NCBI RefSeq assembly: GCF_000177635.2
Contig: NC_014836.1
Location: 1,190,001-1,254,000, forward strand
DNA from: Desulfurispirillum indicum S5
GTDB taxonomy: Bacteria; Chrysiogenota; Chrysiogenetes; Chrysiogenales; Chrysiogenaceae
Direction of reading: 5' to 3'
Length of the DNA stretch: 64,000 bases
The notes beneath the pieces were generated by a model that saw nothing but the letters and a program-made list of their open reading frames with translations, searched no databases and was not told where the DNA came from. This document shows, piece after piece, positions 35,191 to 51,014 of this stretch. The position numbers were made by a program, and so were the translations under genes. Each line of letters begins with the position of its first letter. Position 1 is the first letter of the stretch.

Positions 35191-35218
35191 CACCCGGACT
35201 TGTCGCGAAGTCCGGGTG
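35191..35218 (-). terminator. terminator of the FAD/Fe-S to exported-protein operon
   Basis: A perfect 11-bp stem (35191-35201 with 35208-35218) with a 6-nt loop lies 13 bases past the stop of the 326-aa gene, followed on the minus strand by a T-containing stretch (atttcgtatt). It separates two minus-strand operons. Confidence 0.75.
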
Positions 35219-35231
35219 CTCTGGAGCGATG

Positions 35232-36212
35232 TTACTCGCCGGGGCCGAAGTAGCGGCAGCGCGGGCTGATGCTGCGCAGAAAGCTGTCCGCTTCCGAGGG
35301 AGTACTGTACATGGTGACGCCGGGGCCCTCGGCGGTGGCCTCCAGGTAGAAGCCGGTGCCGTACTTGAGATTGTAGGGAATCCACATCAGGTCGGTGCGC
35401 ACGCGGCTCCCGTTCTCCTTGACGGCGTAATAGGTGTAGATTTCCAGGGGATTCTTGCGGTTGAGACACGCTTCGGAGACGGGGCGCGTGAACTCCTGGG
35501 GATCATTGAAGCCATCGCTGATGCCGCGGTAGCGTTCGGTGACCACCTGGCGTACCGAGGCGAAGTTCCCGCCGACAACAGGGTCGGTGCGGTGAATGCG
35601 GTAGCGGCTGAAGCGGATGATGACATGATCCTCGCCATTTCGGAAGTGAAAGAGCTGGGGAGTGTTGATATCGCGTACCTGTTCAAAAGGACTCTGATCA
35701 TCATACCAGAAGGGGGGTGTCACCGGTGGCGAGGTGGGCCGGAAGGCATCGGGATCCTTGTATGGCTCCAGGGCCATTTCAATGATCTCCAGGTTCAGGC
35801 TGTCGGCCTGGCGACGCAGCAGGATATTGAAGCTTTTGCCATCGGCGGTATTCCTGATGGGAAAGGTGACATAGTCGTTCGGGTCGGGTTGTGGCAGGGG
35901 CTCGATCAGGGTGATGGCGCCGGTTTGCGGGTTGACATTGACGGGCAGGTCTTCGCGGTAACTCAGAATTTCATAGGTGACACCCTCGAATTCAAAAAAG
36001 AGGGTGACGGTTCGCTCATAGCCTCCCGGAACCGCTTCGGGATCGTCGGCCTCAATGGTCAGATCCGCCAATTCGATGCCGATGCTGTTCATGGCGATCA
36101 GGCCGCTGGTAAAGGCGAAAATCGTATGGTGACTGGGATAGTTCAGCTGCAGGCTGAAGGCGCTGCTGAAGAGCAGCAGACACAGCAGCAGTGGTGTGGC
36201 GACGCGGATCAT
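35232..36212 (-). CDS. exported protein of unknown function (326 aa)
   Basis: I do not recognise this family. A signal peptide (about 1-20, LLLCLLLFSSAFSLQ) is followed by a mixed, probably beta-rich mature protein with a Pro-rich stretch near residues 158-166 (TSPPVTPPF) and two cysteines (near 249 and 319) that could pair. It starts 2 bases after the 292-aa gene, which also encodes an exported protein, so they are co-translated. A terminator follows. Its role is unknown; the tight spacing suggests it works with its two neighbours at the envelope. Confidence 0.7.
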   Translation of the reverse strand: MIRVATPLLLCLLLFSSAFSLQLNYPSHHTIFAFTSGLIAMNSIGIELADLTIEADDPEAVPGGYERTVTLFFEFEGVTYEILSYREDLPVNVNPQTGAITLIEPLPQPDPNDYVTFPIRNTADGKSFNILLRRQADSLNLEIIEMALEPYKDPDAFRPTSPPVTPPFWYDDQSPFEQVRDINTPQLFHFRNGEDHVIIRFSRYRIHRTDPVVGGNFASVRQVVTERYRGISDGFNDPQEFTRPVSEACLNRKNPLEIYTYYAVKENGSRVRTDLMWIPYNLKYGTGFYLEATAEGPGVTMYSTPSEADSFLRSISPRCRYFGPGE

Positions 36213-36214
36213 GG

Positions 36215-37093
36215 CTACTCCTTCACGGTCGGTGTAAAGGTCGAGATAACGATATCGGTAATGGCCGCCAGTTCCGAATTGCCCACCAGGGGATGCGTAT
36301 TCTGGCCGTAGAAGTCGATGACGAAGTAGGTGTAGCTTTTGTGTTTATTGGAGTGGGCGGCTTTGGGATAGATCAGGGCTGTGCGACGGTAGTTGTCGTG
36401 GTGCACGGTACCATGATCATCGATCAGGTTTTCCTTGCCCCACATCTCCAGCATGGCGTACTTGTCGGGGTGGCCGATATACTCGACGTTTGGAGTGCCG
36501 AAGGTGGCCGAGATTTTGCGATCGGCGTATTCCTTTTCAAAGGAGTCCTTGACTTTGCCCATAATGCGGTCGTGGGTCTGGGAACCAATGATAATCCTCA
36601 TGAATCCGTGCTCGTAGTGGTAGAGGGGGTTGGGGTAGAAAATCGGATAGTTCTCCGGCGTGTCGATGCGCTCCTTTTCCACACTGGCGAAATACAGGGA
36701 GTCGGCGGCCCTGGTGGTCATCTCGAAGGTGTTCTCCAGGGCGATTTCAAAGCGTGGATCGCCCTTCCACATCTCATGGATGTTCGAGGGAGCCTCCATG
36801 ACCTGCAGGTGGCTCAGGACAAAGAGGTTCTCCTGGGGGTTCCAGGTATAGGTCGGTTTGACCCTGGTCTGACGGGAGGTGTCGGCGAAGGGGTAGCCGT
36901 CGATCTGCAGCAGTCCCTGTTCCTGCAGCTTGCGTGCGTCATCCACTTCGCCTGCGGTGAAGTAGACGGACTGTATGACGAAGCTGTCTTCCGAGGTGTA
37001 TTCGACGATATTGTAGTAATCAACGACAATAAATCCGGCGCTCAGCACACAGAGCAGCAGCAGAGCCAGGAGAAGCAGCCTGTTCACTTTCAT
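36215..37093 (-). CDS. membrane-anchored or exported protein of unknown function (292 aa)
   Basis: Not recognised. One N-terminal hydrophobic segment (LLLLALLLLCVLSAGFIVVDYY, about 5-26) could be a signal peptide or an anchor; the rest is soluble and rich in aromatic residues (YFASVEKERIDTPENYPIFY, YHYEHGFMRIIIG), ending in a segment reading SELAAITDIVISTFTPT. ATG 37093 overlaps the stop of the upstream lipoprotein gene (ATGA) with GGGGGTG before it. It is the middle gene of three in tight succession. Confidence 0.7.
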   Translation of the reverse strand: MKVNRLLLLALLLLCVLSAGFIVVDYYNIVEYTSEDSFVIQSVYFTAGEVDDARKLQEQGLLQIDGYPFADTSRQTRVKPTYTWNPQENLFVLSHLQVMEAPSNIHEMWKGDPRFEIALENTFEMTTRAADSLYFASVEKERIDTPENYPIFYPNPLYHYEHGFMRIIIGSQTHDRIMGKVKDSFEKEYADRKISATFGTPNVEYIGHPDKYAMLEMWGKENLIDDHGTVHHDNYRRTALIYPKAAHSNKHKSYTYFVIDFYGQNTHPLVGNSELAAITDIVISTFTPTVKE

Positions 37094-37524
37094 TTGGCAC
37101 CCCCGCCACACAGACGGTTGTTGGTGCCTGCCACGCACACCACCACATCACGGTCGGGATTCCCATGGAAAATGATATGGTTGTAGGGGTGGCGCAGGGC
37201 ATTCTCATGGTAGACGGCCACACCATAGATCTTTCCGTCTTCTATGGTCAGGCTGTACTCGTAATGGCGGGTGGCGTCAATGCGCGCGTGCCCCGTGGAT
37301 GTCCAGCCACCGGCAGTCCGGATATCAGCGGTGTTGCGGATATCAATGCGTTGCCCGCTGGCGCCGGCTATGGCGGAACCCACATGGCTATGGTTGGCCG
37401 CCGCGCTGACCTTGCCGGAGCTGCCCGACGGTGTGTCGGTTTCCGTGACGCCACAGCCAGCCAGGGCCATCAGCGCCAGCGCTCCCCATGTCAGGAGCCG
37501 GTATTTCCATCGTACTTCTTCCAT
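37090..37524 (-). CDS. putative lipoprotein of unknown function (144 aa)
   Basis: The start ATG at about 37524 (M-E-E-V-R-W) gives a classical lipoprotein signal: a hydrophobic run followed by the lipobox LAGC, with the lipidated Cys near residue 24. The mature part is Ser/Gly-rich, then has short repeated strands (RIDIRNTADI, RIDATRHYEYSLTIEDG) and a C-terminal NPDRDVVVCVAGTNNRLCGGG with two Cys. No family recognised. It lies 56 bases after the radical SAM gene and overlaps the next gene by 4 bp. Confidence 0.72.
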   Translation of the reverse strand: MEEVRWKYRLLTWGALALMALAGCGVTETDTPSGSSGKVSAAANHSHVGSAIAGASGQRIDIRNTADIRTAGGWTSTGHARIDATRHYEYSLTIEDGKIYGVAVYHENALRHPYNHIIFHGNPDRDVVVCVAGTNNRLCGGGAK

Positions 37525-37580
37525 GAAGCACCACCTTGAAGAAAGATCGGTCGTCCATCCATGGACGTCTGCTGTAGCTC

Positions 37581-38522
37581 TTATCGGCACCAGCGGTAGA
37601 AATCTTCATCCCGGGTTATGAGTTTTTTTTCCAGCAGCTCACTGAGGGCTTTGTCAATGGCTGTGGTGTTACCGGAGCTGATGGTGGTGTACAGGTCTTG
37701 GGCGGTGCTTGGGCGCACCTGCAGGACGCGGCAGATGGCTGCCGCGATATCTTCCTCTGCCTGCAGTGCGGGAGGAGTGCCGGGGGCGGGTGTATCCGGG
37801 CGGGTGACCACTTCGGCGCCGGGAAAGAAGCGCGCTGCCAGGGAGTGCAGGTACTCCGCCGACGCCTTGACAAGGCCGGACTGTGTCCCGGGACGATCCA
37901 TGGTGCCCAGTTGGATTCTGGTGTGGTCTATGGAGCGGCAGGCCGCTGCCAGGGCCTCCAGGTGGGCGGGATCGTCGTTGATGCCGGGCAGGATGAGAAT
38001 CTCCAGCCAGATTTCCCCGCAAAATTGTCGCGAGAAATCGCTGAGGGCGGTGATGACCTCTTGTACGTCAATGGTGTGATGGGGCCGGTTGATGCGGGTG
38101 AAAATCTCCTGGGTGGCGGCATCCAGGGAGGGGACGACGATGTCCAGCTGCTGGCACTCCTGCCAGAGGGCGCGATCAGTCAGGGGAGTGCCGTTGGTGA
38201 GCAGGCACAGGCGGTATTGGGGGAACTCAGCTTTGATAGCGGCCACCAGCTCGCCGAAGCGACGGAAGAGCAGAGGTTCGCCGGAACCGGCAAAGGTGAT
38301 GACATCGAGCTGCGGTTTGGTTGCCAGCAGGTGACGCAGCTCATGCAGCACCGCCTCCATGGGGACAAACTCCTGGCGGGTGGTGGTCAGGCGCGTGGTG
38401 GCACCGCATTCGCAGTAAATACAGTCCTCGCTGCAGGTCTTGTGGGGCAGCAGGTCGATGCCCAGGCTCATGCCCAGACGCCGTGAGCGGACGGGACCGA
38501 AGAGGTACTGACAGCGCACCAT
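37581..38522 (-). CDS. radical SAM protein with C-terminal winged-helix-like tail
   Basis: A 313-aa radical S-adenosylmethionine enzyme with the 4Fe-4S motif C30-x3-C34-x2-C37 (KTCSEDCIYCECG) and the following GSGEPLLF segment typical of SAM binding. The C-terminal 65 residues (STAQDLYTTISSGNTTAIDK) resemble a small winged-helix. It matches the COG0731-like set of uncharacterised Fe-S oxidoreductases; the substrate is unknown. ATG 38522 follows the FAD/Fe-S gene stop with no gap, so the two are translationally linked. Confidence 0.85.
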   Translation of the reverse strand: MVRCQYLFGPVRSRRLGMSLGIDLLPHKTCSEDCIYCECGATTRLTTTRQEFVPMEAVLHELRHLLATKPQLDVITFAGSGEPLLFRRFGELVAAIKAEFPQYRLCLLTNGTPLTDRALWQECQQLDIVVPSLDAATQEIFTRINRPHHTIDVQEVITALSDFSRQFCGEIWLEILILPGINDDPAHLEALAAACRSIDHTRIQLGTMDRPGTQSGLVKASAEYLHSLAARFFPGAEVVTRPDTPAPGTPPALQAEEDIAAAICRVLQVRPSTAQDLYTTISSGNTTAIDKALSELLEKKLITRDEDFYRWCR

Positions 38523-41426
38523 TCAGACCTTGAGCCCGTAGGCGCGGGCCAGCAGAATCGCCGGATGCAGGCCGTCCTTGCCCTTTGCCAGATGCTGTAT
38601 CTGCATGCGGCAGGTGGGGCAGTCCGTGACACCGTCCACGCCCTCCTGGGACATGACTTTCCCCAGATCTTCGCCGATGGCAATGGAGAGATCATAGTTC
38701 TGCTTCTTCATGCCCCAGCTGCCGCTCATTCCGCAGCAACCGGCCTGGGACGCCTTGATGTTCAGTCCCGGAACCTGCTGCAGCACCTTGAGGGTGGCGT
38801 TGGCACCGGACTGCACGCGCAGGTGGCAGGGGCTGTGGTAGGCGTACTCATTGACGCGCTCAGGCATGGTGAAATTGAAATCCTGGCGCAGCTTGCCGTC
38901 CTTCTGCAGCATCAGCAGGTATTCGCCCAGGTGGTAGGTATTGCGGGAGACCAGGTGCGTGTCGTCGTTATCCACCGTAAAGAGCCACTCCTCCTTCAGG
39001 CTCAGGGCGCAGGAGGTGCAGCCGGTGATGATGTCGTAGCCCTTTTTGACATAGTAGGAAAAAAGACCCGCGTTGGAGATGACATCATAGCGGGCTTCCT
39101 TGACGTGGCCGTTGGAGAGTTTCGGCAGTCCGCAGCAGTGCTGCTCCGGTACCTCGACCTGAATGTTGTGGTGTTCCAGCACGTTGATAAGGGATTTCGC
39201 CACATCGGTCTGCATGTAGTTGGCGGCGCAGCCGGTGAAGTAGACGACCTTGCGGTCGGGGTTCTTCAGCTTCTGGCGACGTGAGGCGTAGTCCACCGCC
39301 GTCTCCTGGTGAAAGCGCATGGGTTCGCGTTTGCTGCTGATGCCCACCGTCTTTTCCATGATCTTGCGCATCAGGGCAGTGCGCATGACCGGGTTGACAA
39401 AGGGCGCCATGGCTGAGTTCAGGCGCGCGATGCGTTCCACCTGGGTGACCACCCGGTTCTGGAAGGTCTGGCCGTTGCGCAGGACGTAGCGCGCCTTGGC
39501 CTCCAGTACCAGCTTGGGAATGTCCACATTGGAAACGCACTCCAGATGGCAGCTCTGGCAGGAGATGCACTGATCGAGAATCTCCTTGAATTCCGGGCTG
39601 TAGGGGAACTTGCGGGTGTCCAGATTCCCCTGGATCAGGTGACGCAGAATGTTGGCCTTGGCCTTGGGCGCCGCCTTCTCGTCGCGGGTCACCTTGTAGA
39701 CGGGGCACATGTTCACCACCTTGCTGACCGTGGTGCAGGTGGAGCAGCCGTGGCACATCTCAATCTGCTCCTGGTACTCCTGGTTCCCCTGGCCCCAGTG
39801 GAAAATGGTCCTGCGGGTATCGACCACAACCCGGTAGTCAGCGCCGTAACGCAGGTTTTCCGTGTCAGCGCTTTCTGATGCGTTGGTCTTGACATCGGGG
39901 TTCAGCAGGCCCTTGGGGTCGAATATCCCTTTGACCCTGAGGAAAACGGGGAAGAGATCTGGATAGACGCACTGAATATACTTGCTGCGTACCCTGCCGT
40001 CGCCGTGCTCGCCGCAGGGCGTGCCCTTGAGGCGTTCAACCACCTCGAAGAGCTCCCGGGAAATCTTGCGGAACTTCTCGATATCGTCGGGGTTTTTCAT
40101 GCTGAGGATCGGACGCACGTGCAGCAGGCCTTTGCCCGCGTGGCCGTAGACATTGAAGGTGACCTTGTGGCGGCGCGAGCAGGCGTAGACCTCCTCGTAG
40201 TACTCCACAAGATGCTCCAGGGGCACAGCGGCGTCTTCCACAAAGCCGATGGCCTTGGCGTCGCCCTTGATCTTGTTAGCCAGGGGAACGGCAGCCTTGC
40301 GGATACCCCACAGCTTCTCCTTATCGGCCGTGGTGGTGGCGCTGATGAACTCAAAGGCCAGGGGCTGTTCGTCGCAGATGGCGGCGCGTACCTTTTCCAG
40401 GGAAGCGGTGCACTCTGCCAGATCGTCGCCGTCAAATTCAATCATCAGGACATTGTCCAGCTCTTTGGGCAGGGACTTGTCCAGGGCCTCATCCACTTCC
40501 CGGGCCTTACTGACCAGGGAGTTATCCATAAGTTCCACCGCTGCGGCGCCGTGGTCGACGGCAATGATGGTGGCGCGGCCACTGCTTTCGATATCCTTGA
40601 ACATGGCCATGCCCAGGACTTCGTGGCGGGGAATGGGCAGCAGGCGGATTTTGATGCGGGTAATCAGCCCCAGGGTGCCTTCGCTGCCCACAAAGAGCGG
40701 CACCAGGTTGATCAGGCCGTTTTCGTAGACGCCACGCAGGTTGTAGCCACTGACGTTGTACCGGATATCCGGGTAGCCGGAAGCGATCTGGGTGCGGTTC
40801 TCGTCAATGCAGGCCATGATATTCCGGTAGACGGCGGCCTCCATGGTGTCGCGGCTGAGAATGGCCTGGAACTGTGGTGAGTCGACCTCGTAAGGCTTGA
40901 CGTGGATCTTCTCGCCATTGGAGAGCACGACCTGCAGCTCCTCGATATATTCGCCTGTGATGCCGTATTTTACCGAATGGGCGCCGCTGGTGTTGTTGGC
41001 GGTCATGCCGCCGACGGTGCAGTAGTTGCCGCTGGAGGGATCGGGGGGGAAGAACAGACCATAGGGCTTGGCAGCCCGGTTGAGGTCGGCGTAGCGCACT
41101 CCGGGGTCAGTCCAGACATACTGGCCTTCGCGGTTGATCTCGTGAATTTTATGACGGTATTTGGTGAAGTCCACCACAATACCCTGCCCCAGTGCCTGAC
41201 CGCCAATGGCGCTGCCCGCGCCGCGGGCGTGTACCTGGATGCCGCGTTGGCTGGCAAAGGCCAGAATTTTCTGGACATCAACCTCGTCTTTGGGGGAAAC
41301 GGCCCCGAGGGGCAGGACCTGGTAGATGGAGGCGTCGGTGGAGAAGAGGTAACGGGTAGGCAGATCAAAATATACATCACCCTGGATGATGTCGCGAAGC
41401 TCTTGCGCTATGGTGTTCGTATCCAA
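38523..41426 (-). CDS. FAD-linked oxidase / Fe-S fusion dehydrogenase (D-lactate or glycolate dehydrogenase type)
   Basis: A 967-aa fusion of a GlcD/Dld-type flavin domain with a GlcF-like iron-sulfur part. Residues about 30-500 are an FAD-binding (PCMH) domain, with ARGAGSAIGGQALGQGIV at the pyrophosphate loop, and an FAD-oxidase C domain. Next come two 4Fe-4S motifs (CHGCSTC near 560, CISCQSC near 618) and two CCG cysteine-rich domains (CCGLPK near 762, CCGMSGSWGM near 895). It likely oxidises a 2-hydroxy acid and passes electrons to quinone or another carrier. There is no ATG; TTG 41426 with CAGGAG 7 nt upstream is preferred over a TTG nine codons earlier. It heads the operon. Confidence 0.9.
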   Translation of the reverse strand: MDTNTIAQELRDIIQGDVYFDLPTRYLFSTDASIYQVLPLGAVSPKDEVDVQKILAFASQRGIQVHARGAGSAIGGQALGQGIVVDFTKYRHKIHEINREGQYVWTDPGVRYADLNRAAKPYGLFFPPDPSSGNYCTVGGMTANNTSGAHSVKYGITGEYIEELQVVLSNGEKIHVKPYEVDSPQFQAILSRDTMEAAVYRNIMACIDENRTQIASGYPDIRYNVSGYNLRGVYENGLINLVPLFVGSEGTLGLITRIKIRLLPIPRHEVLGMAMFKDIESSGRATIIAVDHGAAAVELMDNSLVSKAREVDEALDKSLPKELDNVLMIEFDGDDLAECTASLEKVRAAICDEQPLAFEFISATTTADKEKLWGIRKAAVPLANKIKGDAKAIGFVEDAAVPLEHLVEYYEEVYACSRRHKVTFNVYGHAGKGLLHVRPILSMKNPDDIEKFRKISRELFEVVERLKGTPCGEHGDGRVRSKYIQCVYPDLFPVFLRVKGIFDPKGLLNPDVKTNASESADTENLRYGADYRVVVDTRRTIFHWGQGNQEYQEQIEMCHGCSTCTTVSKVVNMCPVYKVTRDEKAAPKAKANILRHLIQGNLDTRKFPYSPEFKEILDQCISCQSCHLECVSNVDIPKLVLEAKARYVLRNGQTFQNRVVTQVERIARLNSAMAPFVNPVMRTALMRKIMEKTVGISSKREPMRFHQETAVDYASRRQKLKNPDRKVVYFTGCAANYMQTDVAKSLINVLEHHNIQVEVPEQHCCGLPKLSNGHVKEARYDVISNAGLFSYYVKKGYDIITGCTSCALSLKEEWLFTVDNDDTHLVSRNTYHLGEYLLMLQKDGKLRQDFNFTMPERVNEYAYHSPCHLRVQSGANATLKVLQQVPGLNIKASQAGCCGMSGSWGMKKQNYDLSIAIGEDLGKVMSQEGVDGVTDCPTCRMQIQHLAKGKDGLHPAILLARAYGLKV

Positions 41427-48081: not shown

Positions 48082-49125
48082 ATGTCTTTGCCAAAATCCT
48101 TCATCATTGCCCTTTTCAGTACATTTGCGCTTTTCCTGGCTGGTTGCAGTCAGGATACTTCAACTCCCGCTGCTGGCAGCGGTTCCACATGGCTGTACGC
48201 CCACGAGGAGTTTGAAGGTGATGTGCAGGATGTCTTTGCCCATGAGTTCAAGAATTACATTGAGGCCAACTCAAACCACCAGGTTCGCATCTACCGGTTT
48301 GGCGAACTGGGTGAGTCTGATGACATCATGGAGCAGACCCAGGCTGGAATCCTGCAGTTTGTCAATCAGTCCCCCGGTTTTACTGGTTCACTGATTCCCG
48401 AAGCGCAGATCTTTTTCATTCCCTACCTGCTGCCTGTTGAGGATGAGCAGATTGTAGAGTTCTTTCGCACGAGTGTTGCCATCAATGAAATGTTTGGTGA
48501 TCTCTATGCCGAGCAAGGCCTGAAGTTGCTGACCATGTATCCCGAAGGGGAGATGGTCGTGACGGCAGACACTCCGGTTCGCTCCCCGGAGGATTTCCGT
48601 GGTAAAAATATTCGCACCATGACTAATCCGCTGCTGGCGGAAACTTACCGTGCTTTCGGAGCCACTCCCACGCCTCTGCCCTGGGGTGAAGTGTATGGTG
48701 CTTTGCAGACCAACATTATCCAGGGCCAGGAGAACCCTATTTTCTGGATTCAGTCCGGCGGGCTGTATGAGGTTTCGCCGAACCTTATTTTTACTGGCCA
48801 CGGGCAGTTTACCACTGCCATGATGGCGAATCAGGAGTTTTTCCAGGGGCTGCCGGAAAGTGATCGTCAGCTGATTCGCGAAGCTGCAGAACACGCCTTC
48901 AACTATATAACCGACTATGTTCCCGGACTGGGGGATCGCATGCTGGAAAAGATTCTCCAGTCCAGTGAGCGGGTGACGGTTACTCGCCTCACCGAGGAGG
49001 AGCGTCAGCCATTCCGCGCAGCTGCGGTACAGGTGGAAGATCGCTTTGTCGATATGACTGGTGAGCGAGGCAAGGCGCTGCTGGATCAATTCAAGGCAGA
49101 CTTGCGGAACGTCCGCAGCAACTGA
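48082..49125 (+). CDS. dctP: TRAP transporter substrate-binding lipoprotein (DctP family)
   Basis: Binds the substrate (often a C4-dicarboxylate or other organic acid) for the permease encoded downstream. The 347-aa protein has a lipobox LAGC with Cys22, so it is probably membrane-anchored, unlike many soluble DctP proteins. Conserved features are KNIRTMTNPLLAETYRAFGATPTPLPWGE with the substrate-binding Arg, and the ALQTNIIQGQENP segment. It is the first gene of the dctPQM cluster (14-base gap). The ribosome binding site is GAGGAG. Confidence 0.92.
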   Translation: MSLPKSFIIALFSTFALFLAGCSQDTSTPAAGSGSTWLYAHEEFEGDVQDVFAHEFKNYIEANSNHQVRIYRFGELGESDDIMEQTQAGILQFVNQSPGFTGSLIPEAQIFFIPYLLPVEDEQIVEFFRTSVAINEMFGDLYAEQGLKLLTMYPEGEMVVTADTPVRSPEDFRGKNIRTMTNPLLAETYRAFGATPTPLPWGEVYGALQTNIIQGQENPIFWIQSGGLYEVSPNLIFTGHGQFTTAMMANQEFFQGLPESDRQLIREAAEHAFNYITDYVPGLGDRMLEKILQSSERVTVTRLTEEERQPFRAAAVQVEDRFVDMTGERGKALLDQFKADLRNVRSN

Positions 49126-49139
49126 GGCAGGAGCACTCC

Positions 49140-49712
49140 ATGTCCACCACCAGTCGCCAACCATCGCTGCCCGGTATTCTCGGAGCCATTGATCGCTGGA
49201 TCGGCCATGCCGAGAGTCTGATACTGGCCGTCGGTGTGCTTTTGATGGCACTGAATACCATTGCTAATGTGGTGGGTCGCTTCGTCTTTGGTGAAAGCCT
49301 CTTTTTTGCCGAGGAAGTCAATCGCATCCTGATCGTCATGATTACCTTCGCCGGTATCGGATATGCTGCCCGCCATGGGCGTCATATCCGCATGTCGGCA
49401 TTTTATGATCTCCTGCCCGTTACCGCGCGTCGTATCCTTATGATTGCCATCGCCACGTTCACCGCCATGGTCATGTTCAGTCTGTGTTACTTTTCCATTG
49501 GCTACATTGCCAGCACTCAGGCCACTGGACGGTTGCTGCCCACCCTGGGATTTCCCATTTACCTTATCTATCTCTGGGTTCCGGTGGGATTTGCAGTGAC
49601 TGGTATCCAGTACAGTTTGACGGCCTACAGGAATGCCACGTCCCGCGAGGCTTATCTGTCAACCCATGTCATTGACCACTATCAGGATGTGGATCCGGAA
49701 AAACAGGTATAA
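49140..49712 (+). CDS. dctQ: TRAP transporter small permease (DctQ family)
   Basis: Four-helix membrane subunit of 190 aa that bridges the binding protein and the large permease. Hydrophobic segments are at about 25-45, 55-75, 100-120 and 140-160; the family motif FVFGESLFFAEEVNRILIV lies in the second. It is 18 bases before the large permease gene and 14 bases after dctP. Confidence 0.93.
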   Translation: MSTTSRQPSLPGILGAIDRWIGHAESLILAVGVLLMALNTIANVVGRFVFGESLFFAEEVNRILIVMITFAGIGYAARHGRHIRMSAFYDLLPVTARRILMIAIATFTAMVMFSLCYFSIGYIASTQATGRLLPTLGFPIYLIYLWVPVGFAVTGIQYSLTAYRNATSREAYLSTHVIDHYQDVDPEKQV

Positions 49713-49730
49713 ACCAGGAAGGAAATTGCC

Positions 49731-51014
49731 ATGGCAACCATAATGCTGGTACTGATGATCGCCCTGCTGGTGCTGGGCTTTCCCATGATGATTCCCCTGG
49801 TGGTTGCCGCCATGGTTGGCTTCTGGCTGAGTTTTGATGGGTTCGGTCAGATGAACACCCTTATCCAGCAAATCCTGGGGGGTATACGGCCGGCATCCCT
49901 GATTGCCGTCCCCATGTTTATTCTGGCTGCAGACATCATGACTCGTGGGCACTCGGCTGAGCGGCTGATCAATATGGTCATGGCCTTTATCGGACATATC
50001 CGGGGTGGCCTGGCGGTCAGCACCGCCGCTTCCTGTACCCTCTTTGGTGCCGTATCCGGCTCTACCCAGGCCACGGTGGTGGCCATCGGTTCTCCCTTGC
50101 GCCCACGCATGCTTAAGGCCGGCTACAAAGATCCCTTTACCCTGGCTCTCATTATCAACTCCAGTGACATCGCCTTCCTGATCCCTCCCAGCATCGGCAT
50201 GATTCTCTACGGTGTTATCTCGGGCACTTCCATTGGTGAACTCTTCATAGCCGGAATTGGGCCCGGACTGCTTATACTGCTGCTTTTCTCCATCTATTGC
50301 GTCATATACGCCACTGTCAAGGGAGTTCCTACTGAACCCAAAGCGAGCTGGAAAGAGCGAGTGATTGCTGTGAGGCAGGCCCTGTGGCCCCTTGGCTTTC
50401 CCGTTATCATTGTGGGCGGAATCTATGGCGGTGTTTTCAGCCCGACAGAAGCTGCGGCGGCCTGTGTGCTCTATGCCGTCATACTCGAATTCATCATCTT
50501 TCGCGTCCTCAAACCCGCTGACCTCTACGCCATCGCCAAGTCCACCGGACTGGTAACCGCCGTTGTCTTTATCCTTGTCGGCGTCGGTAACGCCTTTTCC
50601 TGGATTCTTTCCTTTGCTCAGATTCCCCAGACTCTGCTCAGTGGACTGGGAATTTATGACATGGGAGCCAATGGCGTACTTATTGCCATCGCCATTGCCT
50701 TTTTTATTGCCTGCATGTTTGTGGACCCCATTGTGGTTATCCTCGTCCTTACCCCCATTTTTGCTCCAGCTGTTGCCAGTGCTGGAATCGACCCTGTACT
50801 GGTCGGCGTGCTCATCACCCTGATGGTCGCTATTGGCTCAGCCACCCCACCCTTTGGCTGCGACATCTTCACGGCTATAGCCATATTTAAACGACCCTAC
50901 TGGGAGGTCATCCGGGGAACTCCACCCTTTGTACTCATGCTGGTCGCCTCCGCCATTTTGATCATCACCTTTCCCCAGATCGCCCTGTTCCTCAGGGACC
51001 TGGCCTTTGCCTAG
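49731..51014 (+). CDS. dctM: TRAP transporter large permease (DctM family)
   Basis: Na+-driven transport channel of 427 aa with about 12 hydrophobic segments. The repeated DctM motifs are visible: FGAVSGSTQATVVAIGSPL, IPPSIGMILYGVISGTSIGELFIAG, EAAAACVLYAV and PPFGCDIFTAI. With dctP and dctQ it forms a complete TRAP system; the substrate is not deducible. A 196-base gap separates it from the thioesterase gene. Confidence 0.94.
   Translation: MATIMLVLMIALLVLGFPMMIPLVVAAMVGFWLSFDGFGQMNTLIQQILGGIRPASLIAVPMFILAADIMTRGHSAERLINMVMAFIGHIRGGLAVSTAASCTLFGAVSGSTQATVVAIGSPLRPRMLKAGYKDPFTLALIINSSDIAFLIPPSIGMILYGVISGTSIGELFIAGIGPGLLILLLFSIYCVIYATVKGVPTEPKASWKERVIAVRQALWPLGFPVIIVGGIYGGVFSPTEAAAACVLYAVILEFIIFRVLKPADLYAIAKSTGLVTAVVFILVGVGNAFSWILSFAQIPQTLLSGLGIYDMGANGVLIAIAIAFFIACMFVDPIVVILVLTPIFAPAVASAGIDPVLVGVLITLMVAIGSATPPFGCDIFTAIAIFKRPYWEVIRGTPPFVLMLVASAILIITFPQIALFLRDLAFA

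Follow-up and report, generated by a model that had tools for sequence, protein, structure and literature searches.

A conserved three-gene cluster of Desulfurispirillum indicum, probably a small lineage-specific cell-envelope unit of the Chrysiogenaceae

RESULTS

Five genes in a row and a tightly packed trio

We analyzed a stretch of 64,000 nucleotides from Desulfurispirillum indicum S5 (NC_014836.1, positions 1,190,001 to 1,254,000; the genome consists of one contig with 2,928,377 bp), referred to here as the window, in which five genes follow one another on the minus strand. They encode a flavin adenine dinucleotide (FAD)-linked oxidase fused to an iron-sulfur (Fe-S) half, a radical S-adenosylmethionine (SAM) protein, a lipoprotein, and two proteins of 292 and 326 amino acids (aa); the last three genes are called the trio below (Table 1). 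An earlier note on this DNA had placed the five genes head to tail with gaps of 0, 56, -4 and 2 bases, and the coordinates confirm this, the -4 being an ATGA overlap. It had also remarked that truly tight spacing is confined to the last three genes, which turned out to be the key point.

Table 1. Genes and other features of the locus (window coordinates)
Feature	Position	Strand	Basis or remark
FAD-linked oxidase fused to GlpC-like Fe-S half, 967 aa	38523-41426	-	Pfam domains; TTG start at 41426
Radical SAM protein, 313 aa	37581-38522	-	PF04055 match
Lipoprotein, 144 aa, trio gene 1	37090-37524	-	Lipobox-like LAGC; C-terminal cysteines C130 and C139
292-aa exported or N-terminally anchored protein, trio gene 2	36215-37093	-	N-terminus (by eye)
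326-aa exported protein, trio gene 3	35232-36212	-	N-terminus (by eye)
Hairpin 3' of the 326-aa gene, possible terminator	35191-35218	-	11 pairs, 7 G-C

The trio is confined to the Chrysiogenaceae among the genomes searched

The distribution of the trio was followed across the phylum in a set of 50 genomes, 39 of which had a completeness of at least 90% and a contamination of at most 5%, and in a wider set of 384 relatives from 318 genera. The wider set was searched with the 292-aa and 326-aa families, and the lipoprotein was searched in the 50 phylum genomes only. Three of the genomes are Chrysiogenaceae, namely D. indicum S5, G001 and G002, each from a different genus, and in all three the trio keeps the same order and tight packing. 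The 292-aa protein is present in these 3 of the 50 phylum genomes. The same three hold the strong matches of the 326-aa protein, with weak ones in 4 more genomes (E 0.0067 to 0.36; search at E <=1), and of the lipoprotein, with weak ones in 9 more (E 0.0049 to 0.09; search at E <=0.1); the other 47 phylum genomes gave no trio match better than E 0.0049. In the 384 relatives, too, the 292-aa and 326-aa proteins matched strongly in the three Chrysiogenaceae alone; outside them there was 1 weak match for the former and 3 for the latter.

The junctions within the trio are close in every genome. The ATGA overlap between the lipoprotein and 292-aa genes recurs at the G002 locus (L004), counted from the likely start, and the 292-aa and 326-aa genes are separated by 2 bases in the window and by 1 base at L004, and overlap by 10 bases at the G001 locus (L005). 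The genes around the trio, on the other hand, differ among the three genera, a radical SAM neighbor being common to two. In G002 the order on contig C4 is radical SAM, lipoprotein, 292-aa, 326-aa, and the FAD/Fe-S gene lies on C6. In G001 three separate contigs carry the trio (C7), the radical SAM gene (C22) and the FAD/Fe-S gene (C2), each well inside its contig; because the gene ahead of the G001 trio, which encodes an Endoribonuclease L-PSP domain, is divergent, this trio has its own upstream region.

The phylogenetic profile proposed in the earlier note therefore gives a divided answer: the three exported genes co-occur in all three genomes, but the link to the radical SAM gene is not supported, as that gene occurs in 44 of the 50 phylum genomes and lies on another contig in G001. 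Scattering of the genes or membership of known families, which the note had named as evidence against its proposal, was found for the radical SAM link and not for the trio.

Several weaker candidates were followed up. The match of G271 to the 292-aa protein (E 0.0037) was rejected as weak; it lies in a 377-aa protein that is the sole frame of at least 80 aa in 3.1 kb. The G023 match to the 326-aa protein (E 0.0067) was also rejected, since it lies antisense to another gene, presumably a tryptophan-synthase-like one. Two further weak matches to the 326-aa protein, one in G258 (E 4.8e-4, positions 51-131) and one in G291 (E 8.6e-4, positions 36-107), lie inside long open frames whose surroundings hold sub-cut-off immunoglobulin (Ig)-like Pfam matches, a possible hint that the N-terminal half of that protein is Ig-like. 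Peptide-pattern scans of genome contigs returned 33 stretches for the 326-aa protein and 147 for the 292-aa protein with none confirmed, and these blanks weigh little because the two known relatives went unreturned as well, in a scan that may omit near records. A 326-aa pattern scan of viral contigs gave 10 stretches, none confirmed, and tblastn of plasmids with the 326-aa protein gave no match. For the range of the trio, the 384-genome searches weigh more than the contig pattern scans, the viral scan and the plasmid tblastn.

An inverted repeat also follows the last trio gene in L004 and L005, as judged by eye, so it is seen in all three genomes. The hairpin behind the claim of one terminator is there, with a counterpart in both relatives, but the excess of the terminator scan is small: with 9 sites against a shuffle mean of 6.2 (standard deviation 2.5), a single scan match is weak evidence. 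The promoter scan returned 3 promoter-like sites against a chance mean of 2.9, no excess.

Sequence features of the trio proteins

The earlier note had regarded the three exported proteins as members of no recognized family, and this stood for Pfam and NCBIfam, neither of which gave a model at cut-off on any trio protein. With the two relatives of each protein included, no match listed reached a Pfam cut-off; the best E-value was 0.12 for the 326-aa protein and 0.0059 for the lipoprotein, and the 292-aa protein had no match. Export of all three was judged from their N-termini by eye. In the alignment, the lipoprotein and both relatives carry a lipobox cysteine behind a short hydrophobic N-terminus (LAGC, ISGC and LSGC, read by eye), which places them with the bacterial lipoproteins. 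The lipoprotein shares 36% and 25% identity with its two relatives (three-sequence alignment), and the 326-aa protein shares 52% and 34% with its own. Two cysteines near the lipoprotein C-terminus, in a short tail encoded at window positions 37093-37135, are conserved in all three genomes. The second of them is followed by Gly-Gly in both genomes with an adjacent radical SAM gene and not in G001.

Between the window and L004, the differences at codon positions 1, 2 and 3 are 0.35/0.27/0.53 for the 326-aa gene, 0.39/0.25/0.51 for the 292-aa gene and 0.47/0.39/0.68 for the lipoprotein gene. The other genome pairs likewise have fewer changes in the trio at positions 1 and 2 than at position 3, a pattern that would fit, as expected, protein genes under purifying selection. 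Profile comparison of the lipoprotein with the 292-aa protein found no relation.

Predicted folds of the 292-aa and 326-aa proteins

Structure models of the two larger proteins were built from three sequences each. From the secondary structure predicted for the 326-aa protein, a Mog1/PsbP-like fold had been put forward as an idea ahead of any fold search result. The best solved match of the 326-aa model was DcrB (6e8a; Z 9.7, root mean square deviation [rmsd] 2.9 over 112 residues), and 14 chains reached a Z of at least 8, the Mog1/PsbP-like region being the C-terminal half at about residues 183-320. Nearly all leading matches are DcrB, PA94, EagT6/SciW, MTC28, LpqN, PsbP and Mog1, which we assign to one superfamily. 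Among the 50 Foldseek matches listed, the highest probabilities (0.90 to 0.97) went to MOG1, 3lyd, EagT6 and DcrB. DcrB 6e8a was also the best solved match of the 292-aa model (Z 8.2, rmsd 4.1 over 122 residues); ten Mog1/PsbP-like rows lead its list, followed by penicillin-binding proteins and others at Z 6, and Foldseek gave probabilities of 0.91 for photosystem II chain P, 0.85 for LpqN and 0.84 for SciW. The fold comparison barely covers the N-terminal half of this model.

A number of observations weigh against this assignment. Both models are of low confidence (mean predicted local distance difference test [pLDDT] 45.7 for the 326-aa and 59.0 for the 292-aa protein), and the Z of 8.2 of the 292-aa model is at or near the background, in which a best Z of 7 to 8 is typical without a clear match. 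In Foldseek neither model reached an E-value of 0.001 or lower, and Pfam and PDB sequence searches lend the fold no support. The DcrB profile PF08786 has no match at the trio in any of the three genomes, with three sub-cut-off matches elsewhere in G000, and it matched none of the 326-aa and 292-aa alignment members at E <=0.5, so that neither protein is assigned to that family. A common origin of the two proteins finds no reliable sequence evidence: their profile comparison aligned the start of both C-terminal halves with P 0.026 and a probability of 1.9%, and shuffles scored as well in 71 of 300 trials for the C-terminal halves and 69 of 300 for the N-terminal halves, while column shuffles of both proteins without signal peptides did so in 125 of 300.

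Taken with the fold matches, these points leave it quite likely, on the modeled structure, that the C-terminal half of the 326-aa protein has a Mog1/PsbP/DcrB-like fold. For the C-terminal half of the 292-aa protein the same fold is predicted with a modest leaning in its favor, an estimate lowered because its Z lies at the background.

Among known proteins, DcrB (DUF1795), a Mog1p/PsbP-like periplasmic lipoprotein, resembles the two trio proteins in being the best solved match of both models and in being exported. It differs in its low identity (8% and 7% over the aligned part) and in its profile, which has no match to the trio; moreover, the two trio proteins are extended by an N-terminal half, and in the trio the lipid would be carried by another, small protein. 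The Pseudomonas aeruginosa protein PA1624 (6td9) is reported to be periplasmic, with a DcrB-like domain, no recognizable sequence family and unknown function (PMC7716261). It is similar in size and has a Z of 6.0 to the 292-aa model, but its DcrB-like domain is N-terminal and an OmpA-like one C-terminal (PMC7716261), whereas the DcrB-like part of the trio proteins is C-terminal.

The radical SAM gene is widespread and changes its neighbors

The radical SAM protein belongs to its superfamily by a PF04055 match of 63.7 bits (cut-off 29.5), has a CX3CX2C motif at C30, C34 and C37, and ends in a region resembling a winged helix (the last two by eye). Among the best 25 of 27 rows, no NCBIfam equivalog reached its cut-off, the top one being MoaA with 45.1 vs 284 bits, and Pfam placed neither a SPASM nor a peptide-recognition domain on the protein. 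We liken it to the COG0731 group; a literature search for COG0731 together with radical SAM found nothing.

At E <=1e-20 the 44 phylum genomes with the gene have mostly a single copy, with a second match in G049. It adjoins the trio, directly upstream, in two of the three trio genomes (the window and G002). The steady enzyme-substrate linkage of a radical SAM maturase operon was not seen, with linkage in 2 of 3 genomes and a range of 44 of 50 against 3 for the trio.

Its neighborhoods were compared at 14 loci, namely the window, L004 and 12 selected among the 42 remaining genomes that gave a match; neighbors were named by a Pfam scan of one representative locus per set and the remainder by sequence clustering. 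[NiFe] hydrogenase subunit genes occur at 5 loci (L056, L061, L062, L063 and L066), moeA with a solute-binding, molybdate-type transport set at 2 (L058 and L060), cobalt transport genes at 1 (L064), a panE-like gene at 2, and AAA_26 and class-III aminotransferase genes, presumably a bioD/bioA-like pair, at 1; another locus has no shared neighbor at all. Since the neighbors change over the 14 loci, this is a widespread gene with no fixed partner in the trio, and its place beside metal-enzyme genes in other families of the phylum suggests that it may have a role in metal-cofactor metabolism.

The FAD/Fe-S gene and other features of the window

The TTG start of the FAD/Fe-S gene is preceded by an AGGAG-like site (by eye). 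The protein has FAD_binding_4, FAD-oxidase_C, CCG, Fer4_8 and Fer4_17 domains above the Pfam cut-off, and this combination of FAD_binding_4, FAD-oxidase_C, Fer4 and CCG domains in 967 aa is like that of the YdiJ and GlcD-GlpC dehydrogenases. The Fe-S half scores above the GlpC cut-off (PRK11168; 312.6 vs 278 bits), but the protein falls far short of the YdiJ D-2-hydroxyglutarate dehydrogenase model (NF049975) with 469.9 vs 1350 bits and is not assigned to it. The gene is found in 48 of the 50 phylum genomes (E <=1e-100), mostly in single copy with a second match in G048 and G049, and adjoins the trio in the window alone of the three trio genomes.

Beside the FAD/Fe-S gene of G002, on the opposite strand, lies a gene for another radical SAM protein (L067:8496-9548; PF04055, 75.1 bits). 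The family of the window's radical SAM protein has a single match in G002, on a contig other than that of the FAD/Fe-S gene. Further downstream in the window, a solute-binding lipoprotein and a large permease, which we take to be of the tripartite ATP-independent periplasmic (TRAP) type, were recognized by eye at 48082-51014 on the plus strand.

DISCUSSION

The earlier note had proposed an undescribed multi-gene unit of all five genes. The part of it that stands is the trio, which is real as a conserved unit, kept in three of three genomes, and undescribed as far as our searches went; the genes for the radical SAM and FAD/Fe-S proteins, present in 44 and 48 of 50 genomes against 3, probably fall outside it. 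Because of these ranges, and because they adjoin the trio in only two and one of the three genomes, the two genes look like ordinary neighbors. A literature search on Chrysiogenetes operons and hypothetical proteins, judged by title and abstract opening and made with no locus-tag or gene-name search, returned nothing on the trio genes. D. indicum is reported to have secretion systems of types II and I (PMC4793230).

The trio is probably a small lineage-specific unit of the cell envelope and not an enzyme operon. Our tentative reading, which we hold to be nearly as likely as not, is that the real unit is a putative operon of three genes, in the order lipoprotein, 292-aa, 326-aa, encoding a Chrysiogenaceae envelope complex with a periplasmic chaperone or assembly role. 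The trio would most likely form a lipoprotein-anchored periplasmic complex, by a mechanism that we infer as follows. The lipoprotein would be anchored in a membrane through its N-terminal lipid, and the 292-aa and 326-aa proteins, co-produced from overlapping or abutting genes, would be periplasmic and dock on it. The complex might then serve as an assembly or chaperone module that grips a hydrophobic segment, a lipid or an envelope client protein, and the radical SAM and FAD/Fe-S proteins would work elsewhere in metabolism. Some proteins of the Mog1/PsbP/DcrB superfamily hold hydrophobic segments, lipids or clients. An assembly, chaperone or carrier role would be the most economical reading, although we infer every functional step. 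The more specific idea of a periplasmic machine peculiar to the Chrysiogenaceae, in which two strongly diverged proteins of the Mog1/PsbP fold would bind as a pair to their own lipoprotein and move a hydrophobic client, either a lipid or a membrane segment, across the envelope, is unlikely as it stands.

Alternatively, the trio could be a surface or structural component of the envelope, made of Ig-like or other beta-rich domains and acting neither as chaperone nor as carrier. We hold this to be somewhat unlikely, yet the strongest of the alternatives. The proteins are exported as judged by eye, lineage-restricted and diverged (52% and 34% identity for the 326-aa protein), and the latter, in its N-terminal half, weakly matches the G258 and G291 frames near Ig-like matches; however, those matches are weak for a search of 384 genomes, and the C-terminal half of the same protein, as modeled, points to the Mog1/PsbP-like group in the fold searches.

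The earlier note had also suggested that the radical SAM enzyme modifies an exported partner, or that the locus serves an envelope-linked redox function. Neither suggestion gained support here beyond adjacency in two genomes. Modification of a trio member before export, for example at the cysteine-containing tail of the lipoprotein, would agree with the radical SAM gene lying directly upstream in two of three genomes and with the two C-terminal cysteines conserved in all three, but the gene occurs in 41 genomes without a strong trio match, lies on another contig in G001 and varies in its neighbors over 14 loci, and the enzyme has no SPASM or peptide-recognition domain in Pfam, so that we regard this as very improbable. 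Even less is to be expected of a single envelope-linked redox system of five genes, which the head-to-tail order and the gaps in the window would favor, since the FAD/Fe-S gene adjoins the trio in one of three genomes yet occurs in 48 of 50 and the radical SAM gene likewise ranges far wider. Equally far-fetched is a role of the 292-aa and 326-aa proteins as immunity proteins against type VI effectors, like Tli4 or TplEi, which rank lower in the fold comparison (326-aa model, Z 6.3 and 5.5; 292-aa model, Z 5.9 and 5.6): the sheath family VipB is absent from all three trio genomes, though 9 of the 50 phylum genomes have it, which makes this role unlikely, although its absence leaves room for immunity against the systems of other species. 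The nine genomes with VipB belong to two genera (G030, G039-G045 and G047), and G041 and G044 have two copies.

With regard to the putative envelope complex of the trio, a smaller unit backed by genome comparison replaces a tempting five-gene enzyme story. The Chrysiogenaceae are metalloid-respiring anaerobes, and three exported proteins have been kept together in this one deep-branching family, with none elsewhere in the genomes searched. If the predicted fold is true, an envelope unit would be added to a superfamily with several bacterial proteins of unknown function, and the trio would be a clear target for envelope studies in the phylum.

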